NCBI RefSeq assembly: GCF_024707485.1 | Contig: NZ_CP102602.1 | Span: 186,001 to 250,000, forward strand | Direction: 5' to 3' | Source: Thermococcus thermotolerans | GTDB lineage: Archaea; Methanobacteriota_B; Thermococci; Thermococcales; Thermococcaceae | Length of the DNA stretch: 64,000 bases | In this document: in pieces, positions 4,065 to 38,554 of the stretch | Numbering within the stretch: position 1 is the stretch's first letter | Layout of the letters: each line of letters opens with the position of its first letter | Program-made: the position numbers and the translations under genes | The notes under the pieces: model-generated | The model's input: the letters and a program-made list of their open reading frames with translations, nothing else | Databases searched by the model: none | Told to the model about the DNA's origin: nothing

Positions 4065-4192
4065 AATAAATCTCTCCTTTTGGTCCGAACCGGGCAGAAG
4101 AACCTGTGGAGCCCTACCCTTAATACATTGTAGGTCTCACACTATTTAAGTATTCCTGCATTAATTTGGGAAATCCCCAAAGTGAATTTACC

Positions 4193-14808: not shown

Positions 14809-16101
14809 TCACGGATACAGCCTGCTCGGCGTCCTTGGGAAGAGCGTTGCCCATCTCACGTGGTCGAGCTTCAGCACCCATGCGACGAGCCTTTCTAAAC
14901 CGAGGCCGAAGCCGCTGTGCGGAACGCTGCCGTACTTTCTGAGGTCAAGGTACCACTCGTAGTCCTTGGGGTCCATGCCCTCATCGAGAATTCTCTGCAC
15001 GAGCTTATCGTAGTCGTCCTCACGCTGCGAACCACCGATGACCTCACCGTATCCTTCCGGCGCGAGCATGTCGGCCGCTAAGACTTTCCTCGGATCCTTT
15101 GGATCCTCCTTCATGTAGAAGGCCTTGATGTGCTTCGGATAGCCGTAGACGAAGAACGGGGCCTCGAACTCCTGGGTTAAAATCCTCTCCTCGTCGGCTC
15201 CCATGTCCTCTCCCCACTCTATCTCGACGCCCTTGCTCTGGAGGATGTCTATCGCCTCGTCGTAGCTTATCCTCGGGAAGGGCGGAACCGCGTTCTTGAG
15301 CGTCGTTAAGTCCTTCCTGAAGGTCTCAATGTCGCCCTTCCTGAGCTCCAGCGTTCTCTGCACCATGTAGCTTACCAGCTCCTCCTCGACCTTCATAATG
15401 TCCCATAGGTCCATCCAGGCAGCTTCAAGCTCAAGGTGCCAGAACTCGGTGAGGTGTCTCCTCGTCCTGCTCTTTTCAGCTCTAAAGCTCGGCGTGAGCG
15501 ACCAGACCTTCTCAAGGCCGAAGATTGCCGCCTCAAGGTAGAGCTGTGCCGACTGGCTCAGGTAGGCCGTCCTGTCGAAGTATTTGAGCTTAAAAAGGGT
15601 TGCTCCGCCCTCAACCGCTCCGGTGACGAGTATCGGCGGGAAGACCTCGCACCAGCCGTCCTGGAGGAGCCACTCGCGAGCGGCCTGCATCATCGTCGCC
15701 TTGACCTTCATTATGCTGGCGACCTTCGGGGAGTGCAGGTGGAGATGCCTGACATCCAGCAGGAACTCGTCGCTCGCGTCCTTCGTTATCGGGAAGAAGT
15801 CAACGTTCTGGATGACCTCTATCTTATCCGCCTGAATCTCAACCCCGGTGGGGGCGCGAGGGTCGGCCTTAACGGTGCCCTCCACGATGATGCTGGACTC
15901 TATCCCGACCTTCTTTGCTTCGGCGTAGGCTTCTTCGCTCAGCTCCTTCTTGAATATCGTCTGAACGATTCCGCTTGAGTCACGGAGGACTATGAACACC
16001 TTCTTTCCAACTTCTCTCTTCCTGTAAACCCATCCTGCGAGTTTAATACGCTTACCTTCCATATCGGGCCGAACGTCGGCGCAGTAAACCTTATCAATCA
16101 T
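14809..16101 (-). CDS. asnS: Asparaginyl-tRNA synthetase
   Basis: About 430 residues. An N-terminal OB-fold anticodon-binding domain (residues 1-100, IKLAGWVYRKREVGKKVFIVLRD) leads to a class II catalytic core with motif 2 (FRAEKSRTRRHLTEFWHLE), the loop GGSQREDDY, and motif 3 (GFGLGLERLVAWVL near the end). The DVRHLHLHSP segment and the overall length match archaeal AsnRS rather than the AspRS of Thermococcales. It charges tRNA-Asn with Asn using ATP. I place the start at ATG 16101 or 16104, behind GGAGGTGG; the GTG at 16110 falls inside this ribosome-binding site. Confidence 0.9.
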   Translation of the reverse strand: MIDKVYCADVRPDMEGKRIKLAGWVYRKREVGKKVFIVLRDSSGIVQTIFKKELSEEAYAEAKKVGIESSIIVEGTVKADPRAPTGVEIQADKIEVIQNVDFFPITKDASDEFLLDVRHLHLHSPKVASIMKVKATMMQAAREWLLQDGWCEVFPPILVTGAVEGGATLFKLKYFDRTAYLSQSAQLYLEAAIFGLEKVWSLTPSFRAEKSRTRRHLTEFWHLELEAAWMDLWDIMKVEEELVSYMVQRTLELRKGDIETFRKDLTTLKNAVPPFPRISYDEAIDILQSKGVEIEWGEDMGADEERILTQEFEAPFFVYGYPKHIKAFYMKEDPKDPRKVLAADMLAPEGYGEVIGGSQREDDYDKLVQRILDEGMDPKDYEWYLDLRKYGSVPHSGFGLGLERLVAWVLKLDHVRWATLFPRTPSRLYP

Positions 16102-16110
16102 CATTACCAC

Positions 16111-16557
16111 CTCCAGAGGCTTTGAAGGGGGCTTTATAACGGTAGCGATTGGGCTAAGAAAAGCGTCAATTTATCCAGAGCGGAAATGCCCCAATTCTGT
16201 GTTTGACCACTATCATCAACGGCATGGGTGTAGGTTTGAAAATCCTAATTTAAATCCTTTGTCTCCTTGATTGTCATTTTATCATGGAGTGCGGGAACCT
16301 CACCAAAATATGACAATACCCAGTGTTGGGCACCCTCGAAGGAGTTGGGGGTAATCCAATCCTTGGATAATTTTTATCCAAACTGGATAAACCTTCAACA
16401 ATGGAATATTTACTGGGATAATAATTACATTTTGATAAGTTGAAAGGGCATATTAGTTCACAAAGAGTAACACTTATATAGTATTGTGCTCAACATATTC
16501 TTGGTGAGAATTGGAGAGTCTCCAATTATTGCGGGGTAGTGGTGGGGGGATGTTCAA
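16111..16557. other. AT-rich intergenic region ahead of the archaellum locus
   Basis: 447 bases without a convincing gene on either strand. It holds an inverted repeat TTGGATAA-TTT-TTATCCAA (16363-16381) followed by another GGATAA (16385-16390), a TATA box CTTATATA (16473-16480) and a perfect 19-bp palindrome (16509-16527), both discussed below. The 5' half (about 16130-16350) carries nothing I recognise beyond the start region of asnS. Confidence 0.6.
16473..16548 (+). promoter_or_regulatory. Promoter, palindrome and RBS of the EarA-like gene
   Basis: TATA box CTTATATA at 16473-16480 predicts a start site near 16503. The palindrome AATTGGAGA-G-TCTCCAATT (16509-16527) starts only a few bases downstream, where a bound protein would block initiation or elongation; in RNA it would fold as a hairpin with a one-base loop, which is sterically poor, so a DNA operator is likelier. 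The RBS GGTGGGGG (16541-16548) precedes ATG 16558. Autoregulation or binding by another repressor is inferred. Confidence 0.6.
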
Positions 16558-16878
16558 ATGTTCATTGATCCCTTTGTAATCCGCTCTATCAACCGCAGCG
16601 AACTGAGGAAGCGGATACTTTTCTATCTTGACGAGATATATCCCACCCCCACCTACCTCTCTGAAATCGCGCGGGTGGTCAAATCAGACCCCTCAAATGT
16701 GAAGGGTGCTCTTATCGGTCTTGGAAACAGGTACAACGGCCACAGCTCCCTCGTGAGCCTTGGCCTAGTGGAGGTTGTTACCGAGAAGGGCTTCAAGTAC
16801 TACCGGCTCACCGAGTACGGAAAGCAGGTCGTTAAGCTCCTGAAGTCCTATCACTCATACTATTCGAGGTACACATGA
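16558..16878 (+). CDS. earA: EarA-like winged-helix regulator of the archaellum operon
   Basis: 106 residues with one winged helix. Helices around SELRKRILFYLDEIYPTPTYLSEIARVVKSDPSNVKGALIGL form the HTH, and the wing includes LGLVEVVTEKGFKYYRLTEYG. The helical start, the YL.EIA....SDPSNV recognition region and the location immediately upstream of the fla genes fit EarA, the euryarchaeal archaellum activator first described in Methanococcus, which recognises TACATA-type sites. Such sites occur upstream of flaB here (17930-17959). The next gene starts 10 bases after the stop, so the pair forms its own small operon. Identification rests on pattern and context. Confidence 0.75.
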   Translation: MFIDPFVIRSINRSELRKRILFYLDEIYPTPTYLSEIARVVKSDPSNVKGALIGLGNRYNGHSSLVSLGLVEVVTEKGFKYYRLTEYGKQVVKLLKSYHSYYSRYT

Positions 16879-16888
16879 GGTGACGGCA

Positions 16889-17851
16889 ATGAACCCACTG
16901 GCGGAGATACTCGACAGGAACCTTGAGGCTATTGTCGACTTATCCCTTGGACATCTCCTCAGGCTCGGGTTGAAGTACGGCATATTCCGCAGGCTCGCTG
17001 GGGGAGTGCCCCGTGAAGAATTGCTGTCTGTGATCCCGGTCTCCAACAAGACGTATCTTGGAAGGCTTATAGATACCTACGTCTCCCTTGGCTTTGTGGA
17101 GGAGTCCGATGGCCTCCTTAGGACGCCTGGCTTCTCTTACGAGTTCAACCTAAGCGCGGAAGACGCTGGAAAACTCCTCTCGGACTGGGTTCAAATAGTC
17201 GAGGAGCTTTACAAAATGGCGGATTATGCATTTATCTCGGCTGAGCACCCGAAGATACTCATGGACTTCGACAAGGGGGCCGACTTCTGGGACATGCGTC
17301 TGCTGATGGAGCTCAACAGGACATACCGACAGCTTCTCGTAGACCTGCTCGGCCTTGAAGATGGGGTGAGGGTCCTTGACCTCGGCTGCGGCTCTGTTTC
17401 CCCCGTGGAGCTTGGGGAGGCTGTGGGGCCCAACGGGAAGTACGTTGGAGTCGATTTCTCGCCGGGGCTCCTGAGCATCGCACAGGCCCGCGTCAGAAAC
17501 GCCCGGATGGACTGGGTGCTCCTGAGGGAGATGGACATAAGAAAGCTCGTGGTCAAGAATACTTACGACGCCGTTGTGATGAGCTTCGTCCTTGAGTACC
17601 TGGAGAATCCGGGTGCAGCGGTTAAAAGGGCCATTGGCACCCTGAACCCGGGAGGGAGGCTCGCCATAGTAGAGCCGTTCAGGGACAATTACCCGTTGAT
17701 AGCGGCCATGGAGTTTTTTGAGAGCCTCACGAGGGAATTCGTTCGCTTCCCGAGCTCTGCAGAGGTTATCCACGCGGTGGAGGAGAGCCCCTACGATGTA
17801 AAGGTCGACACCCTCGGAAAGTCTGTTCTGTTGGTCACGCGTCTGGTGTGA
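16889..17851 (+). CDS. SAM-dependent methyltransferase in the archaellum locus
   Basis: 320 residues from ATG 16889 (GAGGTG upstream; GTG 16880 is less likely). An N-terminal helical/winged-helix dimerisation region (residues 1-100) is followed by a Rossmann methyltransferase: motif I VLDLGCGSVSP near 160, YVGVDFSPGLL for the ribose-binding acidic loop, and AVVMSFVLEYLENPG as motif IV. The layout is like small-molecule O-methyltransferases. Such a gene recurs beside fla operons in Thermococcales; a role in modifying archaellin or its glycan is plausible but not shown. It is coupled to the EarA-like gene and ends about 180 bases before flaB. Confidence 0.8.
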   Translation: MNPLAEILDRNLEAIVDLSLGHLLRLGLKYGIFRRLAGGVPREELLSVIPVSNKTYLGRLIDTYVSLGFVEESDGLLRTPGFSYEFNLSAEDAGKLLSDWVQIVEELYKMADYAFISAEHPKILMDFDKGADFWDMRLLMELNRTYRQLLVDLLGLEDGVRVLDLGCGSVSPVELGEAVGPNGKYVGVDFSPGLLSIAQARVRNARMDWVLLREMDIRKLVVKNTYDAVVMSFVLEYLENPGAAVKRAIGTLNPGGRLAIVEPFRDNYPLIAAMEFFESLTREFVRFPSSAEVIHAVEESPYDVKVDTLGKSVLLVTRLV

Positions 17852-17928
17852 CATCCTGTCTTCACACCCTTCAAGAGCATGCTGGATATTTTCCCAACAT
17901 ATCTTTAATTATTCGCAGTAGTATCAAC

Positions 17929-18028
17929 CTACATATGTAGGTACACCAGTTTCTACATAATTACCAACAAAAAATCGATTTATATTCAAAGATCACTAAG
18001 ATATATTGCAGAATCCCTAATGGAGGTG
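17929..18028 (+). promoter_or_regulatory. Archaellin operon promoter with TACATA activator sites
   Basis: The palindrome CTACATATGTAG (17929-17940) holds TACATA on both strands, and a second TACATA lies at 17954-17959. Just downstream come a BRE-like AAAAATCGA and the TATA box TTTATATT (17979-17986), predicting transcription from about 18008. The RBS GGAGGTG is at 18022-18028. Two or more TACATA copies upstream of BRE/TATA is the arrangement reported for EarA-activated fla promoters. Confidence 0.72.
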
Positions 18029-18035
18029 CCAGGAT

Positions 18036-18689
18036 ATGAAGTTGCTGAGGAAAAAGAGGGGTGCCGTCGGTATCGGTACCCTGATAGTGTTCATAGCCAT
18101 GGTTCTAGTGGCTGCAGTGGCTGCTGCAGTTCTCATCAACACCAGCGGCTACCTCCAGCAGAGGGCTGAAGCCACGGGCAGGCAGACCACCCAGGAGGTT
18201 TCAACGGGCATAAAGATCGATGCGGTGACCGGCTACGCTCCGAGCGCGAACAACATGACCCTGATGACGATCCAGGTTTCCCTTAACGCGGGAAGCACTC
18301 CGATTGACCTCAACCAGACTAAGATCTATCTTGACAACGGCCAGAAGCAGGTCGTTCTCTCCTATGGAAACGCCAAGGCCCCTATAAGTGGCGATATGTT
18401 TGACACAACCTCTGCCGCCTGGAACAGCACCAAGGTTGATGGGACCCACTTTGGAATCCTCATTGTCCAGGATGCCGACAACTCCCTCAACGGGAACATT
18501 CCGACCCTCACCACCGGCGACATAGCCCTGCTCACCATCAACCTCACCGCTGTCTTCGGCGGTGTTGAGCCGAGGACCCCGATAACCATCAGGGTCGTTC
18601 CGGAATTCGGCGCTCCGGGCTTCACCAAGGTCATCACCCCGACTGCCTACGGTCTCAGCACCACCGACAAGATCGTCGACCTCAAGTGA
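18036..18689 (+). CDS. flaB: Archaellin (major archaellum filament protein)
   Basis: 217 residues. A class III signal peptide ([10 protein letters not shown], cleavage after KKRGA before VGIGTLIVF) would be cut by the FlaK peptidase. The hydrophobic N-terminal helix packs the filament core, and residues 60-217 form the exposed beta domain. Sequons of the N-x-S/T type (for example NNMTL, LNQTK, WNSTK, INLTA) are candidate N-glycosylation sites. It is the first gene of the operon, behind the TACATA promoter. Only one archaellin gene is present, although related species often carry two to five in tandem. The 50-base gap to flaC contains a T-rich run (about 18702-18712) that may cause partial termination. 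Confidence 0.95.
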
Positions 18690-37667: not shown

Positions 37668-38554
37668 TCGATCACGAGAGCCCGCTTGTCTTTTTCTTTA
37701 GCCTTCCTTTTGAAAAGTTTCGCGTATTCTTCCATGACCTCCCTGCACTCTTCACCTGTGTTCTGCTTTGATCTTCTGACGGTGTAGCTTCCCCAGATGA
37801 CCATTGAGACGAAGGCCAGGGAGAAAAGCGCCGCCGCTGTCAGCGCGCCGGGGCCTAGGGAGGCGCCCACGATGGCAGGCAGGAAAATGAATCCGTAGCC
37901 TAGAACTTTATCCTTCGTGCCTGCGGATGGGGCCCTCAGCACACATTCCACCAGCTCCCTCCAGCGAGGGAACTCCTCGATGACCTTTCCGCCCACCACG
38001 AGGGCCTTCCCGAGTTTGTATATCGCGTAGCTCTCCCCGTCGGTGAGGCAGTCCAGACCGTTCTTACTTACCAATTCTTTGAGCTCTCCTCTGCAGGGAA
38101 TCGCCTTAAGGGCGCGCAGAGGATTTCTGTCTGAGAGCACTAGGAGAACCGCGAGCAGGGCCGAGCCGAGGACAAAGAACATAAAGTTCACGCTCGCGGA
38201 TAATCCAATATCCATACTTAAAAGATACCAAATAAGAAGTGAAGCCCCCGTCATCTCGTCTATTGCCAGGCTTTCCTTCGAGCGGAACCAGAGGTAAAGA
38301 ACCGCCACGAGCGTCGCCATGAAAGTTTCGAGGCCCATAAGTCCGTTTGGGGTAAACTCACCAAAGGGTGTTGAAACAACTAAGATGGCTCCATTGGGGA
38401 TCTCCCAACCCCCATAGAGTACCCAGTCCGTCAGGTAGGTGAACAGCGGAATTGCCATCGCCGCCATCACCAGCTCGCCCGCCCGTCCCTTGAATCTGCC
38501 GTAGACGAACGCGAGGAGCATCCCAACCCCTGTCCCGATCGCAAACCCTATCAT
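37664..38554 (-). CDS. Polytopic membrane protein of unknown function
   Basis: About 296 residues from ATG 38554 (GGTGGTGCG upstream). Hydrophobic helices lie near residues 2-20, 28-47, 85-105, 120-155 and 225-265, with a soluble loop of about 70 residues between ([19 protein letters not shown] to about 215) and a basic C-terminal tail. I do not recognise it. It sits on the opposite strand between ndk and infB, genes that are normally close, so it is an insertion into that conserved order. Confidence 0.75.

Follow-up and report, generated by a model that had tools for sequence, protein, structure and literature searches.

A palindrome in the earA leader of Thermococcus thermotolerans is probably an operator of an Lrp-type regulator

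Introduction

In the available text of PMC10665913, the level of EarA, the euryarchaeal archaellum regulator, correlates with the degree of archaellation in P. furiosus, and the stimuli that act on EarA are called elusive. In T. thermotolerans, a perfect palindrome lies just behind the predicted start site of earA in the window, i.e. the whole stretch of 64,000 nucleotides analysed here (NZ_CP102602.1, positions 186,001 to 250,000). Does this palindrome mark a regulator that acts on earA and, if so, which one? The control of the arl operon by EarA concerns the same gene cluster and pathway (available text of PMC10665913); the main text of that study does not mention Lrp, repression, autoregulation or palindromes.

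Results

The palindrome lies in the predicted leader of earA

The gene for EarA, a 106-aa ORF (16558-16878, plus strand; PF07381, E 5.9e-33), is preceded by the TATA box TTATATA (16474-16480, plus strand), which is conserved among relatives, and the usual spacing from this TATA box places the predicted start site at ~16504. The perfect 19-bp palindrome AATTGGAGA-G-TCTCCAATT, with 9-bp arms and a 1-bp centre, occupies 16509-16527, i.e. ~+6 to +24 relative to this start site, and lies within the predicted leader, its end being 31 bases upstream of the earA ATG (16558). Its 15-bp core TTGGAGAGTCTCCAA (16511-16525) lies 37 bases after the TATA start, at predicted positions ~+7 to +21. The first-pass annotation had described the palindrome at this place, about 6-24 bases past the predicted start, and both its sequence and its coordinates were exact. 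Moreover, it had called the palindrome distinct from the TACATA motif at flaB, which agrees with our finding that the EarA motif A(C/G)(C/G)TACA(T/C) is absent from the palindrome.

Downstream, a methyltransferase gene (16880-17851, plus strand; ORF matching Pfam methyltransferase families) separates earA from arlB; this gene is named fam in P. furiosus (available text of PMC10665913). Upstream, at 16240-16262, a block ATTTAAA-N-CCTTTG is kept in 12 aligned earA upstream regions; on the minus strand, it resembles a BRE/TATA that might serve the class II tRNA synthetase gene transcribed divergently (14809-16110).

A palindrome of this size is unremarkable across the whole window. Based on 20 simulated sequences with the dinucleotide frequencies of the window, 0.2 palindromes are expected with a spacer of 1 (one seen), 0.4 with a spacer of 0-1, and 2.35 with a spacer of 0-8 (five seen). 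Within the 73-base earA leader, however, arms of at least 9 with a spacer of at most 8 are rare, arising in 0.0007 of 3000 shuffles. For earA leaders as a class, an excess of palindromes over shuffles was not found.

The strict symmetry of the 19-mer is lineage-specific

Of 94 genomes of the family (Thermococcaceae), 72 contain a PF07381 match, and we extracted 71 earA upstream regions, one per genome; G073 was left out because its sole match sits in a 470-aa frame. In G073, G077 and G085, the PF07381 matches lie within large frames of 435-470 aa, compared with the usual short EarA, and EarA relatives with 50-60% identity (L093-L116) occur in Thermoplasmata and other archaea beyond Thermococcaceae.

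Even with up to 3 mismatches allowed, the exact 19-mer has no second copy in its own genome. A search that allowed up to 2 mismatches gave one site each in 14 of the 94 family genomes, four of these sites being at earA; the ten sites outside earA are at chance level because the reversed-pattern control gave 13 sites in 11 genomes of the same set. The pattern TTGGATAANNNTTATCCAA matched one to five times in 42 of the 94 genomes, with five at earA by position (G000, G013, G031, G037, G071), and TTGGANNNNNTCCAA with one mismatch was uninformative in the own genome (57 matches vs 168 for the reversed control). In a seven-genome scan, TTRRANANTNTYYAA matched twice in the own genome, one match being the palindrome, and its reversed control also matched twice; among the ORFs around three other TTRRANANTNTYYAA matches (L275, L283, L285), a clear regulon was not seen.

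In the five closest relatives, the right arm TCTCCAATT decays to TCTCTAATT and TCTTTAATT, and in two of them the left arm is changed too; the sites that these relatives keep there are less symmetric and score 10.0-14.0 bits. We conclude that the strict symmetry of the 19-mer is lineage-specific. The first-pass annotation had named conservation upstream of other Thermococcus earA genes as a check, and had held that a palindrome unique to this strain and absent from any other promoter would refute its reading. For the 19-mer taken literally, exact symmetry is indeed not conserved and the sequence is unique; the operator class escapes this objection because the five nearest relatives keep their versions in place, and sites of the same dyad class occupy this position in other earA promoters.

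A dyad class with preferred positions is enriched upstream of earA

The frame TTG-N9-CAA is present in 31 of 52 non-redundant 300-base earA upstream regions, while 21 other spacings in the range 0-21 gave counts of 0-16; the non-redundant regions share fewer than 35% of their 8-mers in the last 150 bases and still share ancestry, and the counts are not independent. The frame occurs in 16/52 regions within the 120 bases adjoining earA (shuffles: mean 2.2, max 7) and in 23/52 in the next 120 bases (shuffles: mean 3.1, max 9), and no excess was found 241-360 bases upstream (5/52; shuffle mean 2.6). Its density is 68 matches in 28 kb of earA upstream DNA compared with 60 in 136 kb of flanks. In the control set of TBP upstream regions, it was present in 1/30; since these regions look richer in G+C than those of earA, shuffles and other spacings are the better controls. 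The frame CAA-N16-TTG also reaches 18/52 earA upstream regions.

Two other elements recur in the 120 bases nearest to earA. The strand-specific element TANAATCA(G) is present in 21/52 leaders in the forward and one in the reverse orientation (shuffles: mean 1.2, max 6; examples L021, L026, L062); in the window it is broken, the sequence aligned with it being AATTATTGCGG. The published EarA motif is present in 4/52 (shuffles: mean 0.7, max 3), e.g. in L007, L021, L026 and L033, which hints weakly that EarA controls its own gene in one clade.

A dyad matrix trained on the earA upstream regions, in which position was not used, reads approximately TT(G/A)-N-A-w-A-w-T-w-T-N-(C/T)AA. By this matrix, the palindrome (16.0 bits) is the only site of at least 15 bits in the 64-kb window, and five of the eight sites of at least 10 bits are at earA and arlB (16509, 17880, 16343, 16361, 18004). 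The upstream dyad AG-TTGGGGGTAATCCAA-TC (16343-16361; 11.8 bits) lies 129 bases before the TATA box. An inverted-repeat scan detected overlapping inverted half-sites, TTGGATAATTTTTATCCAA (16363-16381) and TTTATCCAAACTGGATAAA (16373-16391), in the region 16361-16391; the site at 16361 scores 10.9 bits, and the half-sites are partly conserved in the five nearest relatives. Dyads are clustered at the earA gene of the window (16343, 16361, 16509), and many other earA upstream regions also contain several matches.

Positions were counted in the 68 earA promoters with a recognised TATA box (L008, L020 and L022 were dropped from the 71). Relative to the TATA start (±1 base), sites of at least 8 bits are found at -31 (21 promoters), +36 (18), -121 (13), -129 (12), -62 (7) and +5 (7). 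The offset -129 is that of the 16343 site, and +36 is that of the palindrome; the 18 promoters with a site at the latter represent four genera and include those of each of the five closest relatives. In 33 promoters, offset-0 matches overlap the TATA box, a peak that is partly trivial because of this overlap, TATA itself resembling a half-site. The CAA that completes such a match is less trivial: TTATATA-N5-CAA accounts for 24/53 earA TATA matches vs 1/14 in the background, and TTATATA-N10-CAA for 18/53 vs 0/14.

Pairs of sites scored by the earA matrix (±1 base) are spaced by 31 bp (20 pairs), 62 bp (13) and 121 bp (9), compared with at most 2 pairs at any distance in 20 shuffles. By a second matrix, built from Lrp promoters and described below, these distances again come first but are weaker (31 bp, 8; 61 bp, 11; 120 bp, 8; median 1). 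Once TATA-overlapping matches are removed, the spacing 30-32 is left with two pairs, 61-62 and 165 with five each, and 16 with six. Helical phasing at 31 bp is thus suggestive at most because the peak rests mostly on TATA-overlapping matches.

Inverted repeats in a leader could also act as an RNA hairpin, and in the alignment the changes in the arms keep G-U pairs in the relatives L055 and L056 and in L058. However, arm pairs are lost in L067 and L059, and the 67-base leader folds with -0.97 kcal/mol at 80 °C and -0.09 at 88 °C, compared with -19.0 at 37 °C. Moreover, there are sister dyads upstream of TATA, which are not part of the transcript. With ~-1 kcal/mol at 80 °C and sister sites beyond the transcript, this is not a stable, transcript-confined hairpin; we rejected this candidate and consider a hairpin function exceedingly improbable.

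The dyad is present in the promoter of one Lrp/AsnC gene

The T. thermotolerans genome contains 11 AsnC-HTH matches, ten of which are above the cut-off of the family. One of the proteins, P0001 (C1:710140-710586), has a dyad of 13.9 bits in its own promoter; the other ten have promoter dyads of at most 9.5 bits, the gene start of L192 being uncertain. The nearest solved structure is that of P. horikoshii PH0061 (2dbb; E 1.3e-35), the P. furiosus counterpart of which may be PF0054. Among the papers searched, none on PH0061 or PF0054 was found, and no title or opening abstract addressed Lrp control of the Thermococcus archaellum.

P0001 has a match in 91 of the 94 family genomes. Among the 30 near orthologues examined of these 91, 28 have a promoter dyad of at least 10 bits, located at -76 to -79 in 27 of the 30; in L225, it is at -100 with the TATA box shifted equally, and L224 and L230 are without it. 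The near-orthologue promoter sites comprise 19 distinct sequences. In 20 more distant orthologues, a site of at least 9 bits adjoins the BRE in 13, part of the score of such a match being supplied by the BRE itself, and a site of at least 10 bits is present anywhere in 300 bases in 15; L254 has no dyad, L264, L267, L269 and L270 have a weak one by the BRE (6.1-8.0 bits), and L253 and L259 have a better site away from it. Orthology is by best match, without a tree, and the most distant proteins are 40% identical. All 15 P0001 orthologues compared have the same TTRQR stretch in their HTH.

By the Lrp-promoter matrix, which was built from the 19 distinct sites, the two highest scores in the 64-kb window are those of the palindrome (17.1 bits) and, next, of the 16343 site (15.7 bits); three other window sites exceed 12 bits (38392, 4164, 42262). 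The further window dyads at 4164-4182 and 38392-38410 score 11.7 and 10.6 bits by the earA matrix and 13.9 and 14.6 bits by the Lrp-promoter matrix, respectively. Sites of at least 10 bits by the Lrp-promoter matrix are present in 44/71 earA upstream regions vs 0/28 TBP upstream regions. The two matrices are not fully independent because the earA matrix served to choose the Lrp sites; the fixed position of these sites is independent. Lrp sites usually have an AT-rich centre. The centre is AT-rich in the family matrix; that of the window palindrome, GAGTC, is not.

These data also bear on whether the palindrome arose by chance and is functionless. In favour of chance are the 0.2-0.4 such palindromes expected per window, the single copy of the 19-mer in the genome and a symmetry that decays in the nearest relatives; against it are a same-position site in 18 of 68 earA promoters of four genera, the first rank under a matrix derived from a different promoter family and the rarity of such a palindrome in shuffles of this leader. 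We regard chance as improbable.

A different regulator, an Lrp paralogue or a member of another family, could bind the dyad, with the PH0061-type gene merely being a fellow target. Lrp proteins are prone to autoregulation, which is not proof of the binder; a paralogue in the own genome, L198, has a promoter site of 9.5 bits; and the consensus of Ss-LrpB has the same TTG-N9-CAA frame in the available text of PMC4046817, so that the frame is not protein-specific. On the other hand, a strong promoter dyad is present at no other AsnC-HTH match of the genome, with the reservation for the start of L192, and the place of the dyad is fixed in 27 of 30 orthologues of the PH0061-type gene. On balance, we hold another binder to be rather unlikely.

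The dyads recur at arlB, apart from the EarA-type sites

The first gene of the archaellum operon, arlB (18036-18689, plus strand), is an ORF for an archaellin, named from sequence and context. Upstream of it, the dyad-like site TGCTGGATATTTTCCCAAC (17880-17898) scores 12.1 bits by the earA matrix, the second-highest value in the window, and 9.7 bits by the Lrp-promoter matrix, the sixth. The arlB leader contains a dyad, TATTGCAGAATCCCTAATG (18004-18022; 10.8 bits by the earA matrix), 27 bases after the TATA box, and exactly 31 bp ahead of it a weak dyad-like match (17973-17991; 6.0 bits) lies over the arlB TATA box. We compared 16 arlB upstream regions, i.e. that of the window and 15 of 20 loci from relatives found by tblastn, five loci without arlB being dropped. 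A leader dyad of at least 9 bits is present 26-27 bases after TATA in 11 of the 16 (all except L235, L236, L239, L241 and L246), and eight of these 11 have a weaker TATA-overlapping match (6.0-10.2 bits) 31 bp before it.

The EarA-type sites ACCTACAT and AGGTACAC (17927 and 17939; 17927-17946, plus strand) match A(C/G)(C/G)TACA(T/C) and lie apart from the dyads of the window. Across the arlB promoters, sites of this type are further upstream than the dyads and separate from them. In the available text of PMC10665913, the EarA motif is upstream of the arlB BRE. This motif differs from the dyad. These observations bear on the idea of EarA as the binder of the dyad and the regulator of its own gene. 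EarA should matter at earA and at arlB, and the dyads do sit at both; however, the published motif mismatches the dyad and is located elsewhere at arlB. Moreover, in eight of the 30 genomes of the near Lrp orthologues, a match to earA was not found; seven of these eight keep the Lrp dyad, five of them at 99% completeness, which disfavours EarA as the binder. We consider binding by EarA very unlikely.

Discussion

The dyad class is enriched upstream of earA across Thermococcaceae, apparently including many relatives in Thermococcus and Pyrococcus, has preferred positions and is present at three kinds of promoter, i.e. those of earA, in part arlB, and one Lrp gene. With moderate confidence, we propose that an Lrp/AsnC regulator, for which the PH0061-type protein P0001 is the best candidate, binds several 15-bp dyads (~TTGGAWAWTWTCCAA, TTG-N9-CAA) at earA, of which the palindrome is the one in the leader. 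Several results weigh against this proposal: the imperfect symmetry in the five nearest relatives, the GAGTC centre, the three other window sites above 12 bits, the arlB upstream regions without a leader dyad, the less regular sites of the distant Lrp orthologues, the own-genome scan that did not exceed its reversed control, and the Lrp gene (91/94 genomes) and earA matches (72/94) not strictly co-occurring. In functional terms, it is probably an operator of an autoregulated Lrp-type regulator that probably represses earA and also acts at arlB. We infer the binder, its oligomeric state, the signal and the sign of regulation, the latter, i.e. repression, from site position only.

The dyads resemble known archaeal operators in several respects. 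According to the available text of PMC2995911, archaeal Lrp dimers bind imperfect inverted repeats of 13-17 bp that are clustered two or three turns apart; LrpA represses from a site immediately behind TATA, and activation from a site immediately ahead of the BRE is also known. The sites described here are 15-bp, spacing-specific TTG-N9-CAA repeats, clustered at 16343, 16361 and 16509, and share with the operators of Ss-LrpB, LrpA, Ptr2 and FL11 the clusters, the site adjacent to TATA/BRE and the presumed autoregulation (available text of PMC2995911). The Ss-LrpB site TTGCAAAATTTGCAA is likewise a 15-bp inverted repeat with TTG...CAA ends (available text of PMC4046817). Unlike those operators, the inner bases here are G-A/T-C rather than C-A/T-G, the target is a motility regulator, and the present evidence is from sequence. 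CopR of P. furiosus is an Lrp/AsnC protein from the same order; in the available text of PMC7830388, it recognises a semi-palindrome directly upstream of the BRE and its octamer is proposed to wrap ~150 bp, and we count the semi-palindrome by the BRE and the proposed DNA wrapping as further likenesses. By contrast, TTGGAGAGTCTCCAA does not match the CopR consensus TTNNCAWWWTGNNAA, the inner CA and TG being absent, and CopR serves a copper regulon (available text of PMC7830388).

In T. thermotolerans, the Lrp protein would have two places of binding at earA, one around TATA -129 to -107 and one at ~+7 to +21, and it might bend or wrap the DNA that connects them. Protein bound in the leader would hinder RNA polymerase at earA and thereby repress it, and through the arlB dyads the same Lrp protein would block the archaellum operon. 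A metabolic signal would then lift both blocks. In species with a site abutting the BRE (offset -31), Lrp could instead activate earA. The effectors of FL11 are lysine and arginine (available text of PMC2995911), and the effector here might be similar, by analogy only.

The first-pass annotation had suggested that a second regulator besides EarA may control archaellum synthesis from above. A second regulator is likely because the palindrome is a protein-binding-like dyad, distinct from the EarA motif and of a class that is enriched at earA family-wide; to the path from above through earA we would add a possible direct action of this regulator at arlB.

The dyad class shared by earA and one Lrp gene lends itself to a direct experiment with one protein, three promoters and one motif. 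If the proposal is true, the PH0061-type protein, of which the structure (2dbb) is available, gains targets, and our observations suggest it as a candidate regulator that helps to switch swimming on or off. More tentatively, and with less confidence than for the operator itself, a feast/famine Lrp of the PH0061 type might stand at the top of the archaellum hierarchy in Thermococcaceae, controlling itself, earA and, in many species, arlB by one dyad code and a DNA-wrapping complex across TATA, and would thus couple motility to metabolic state.
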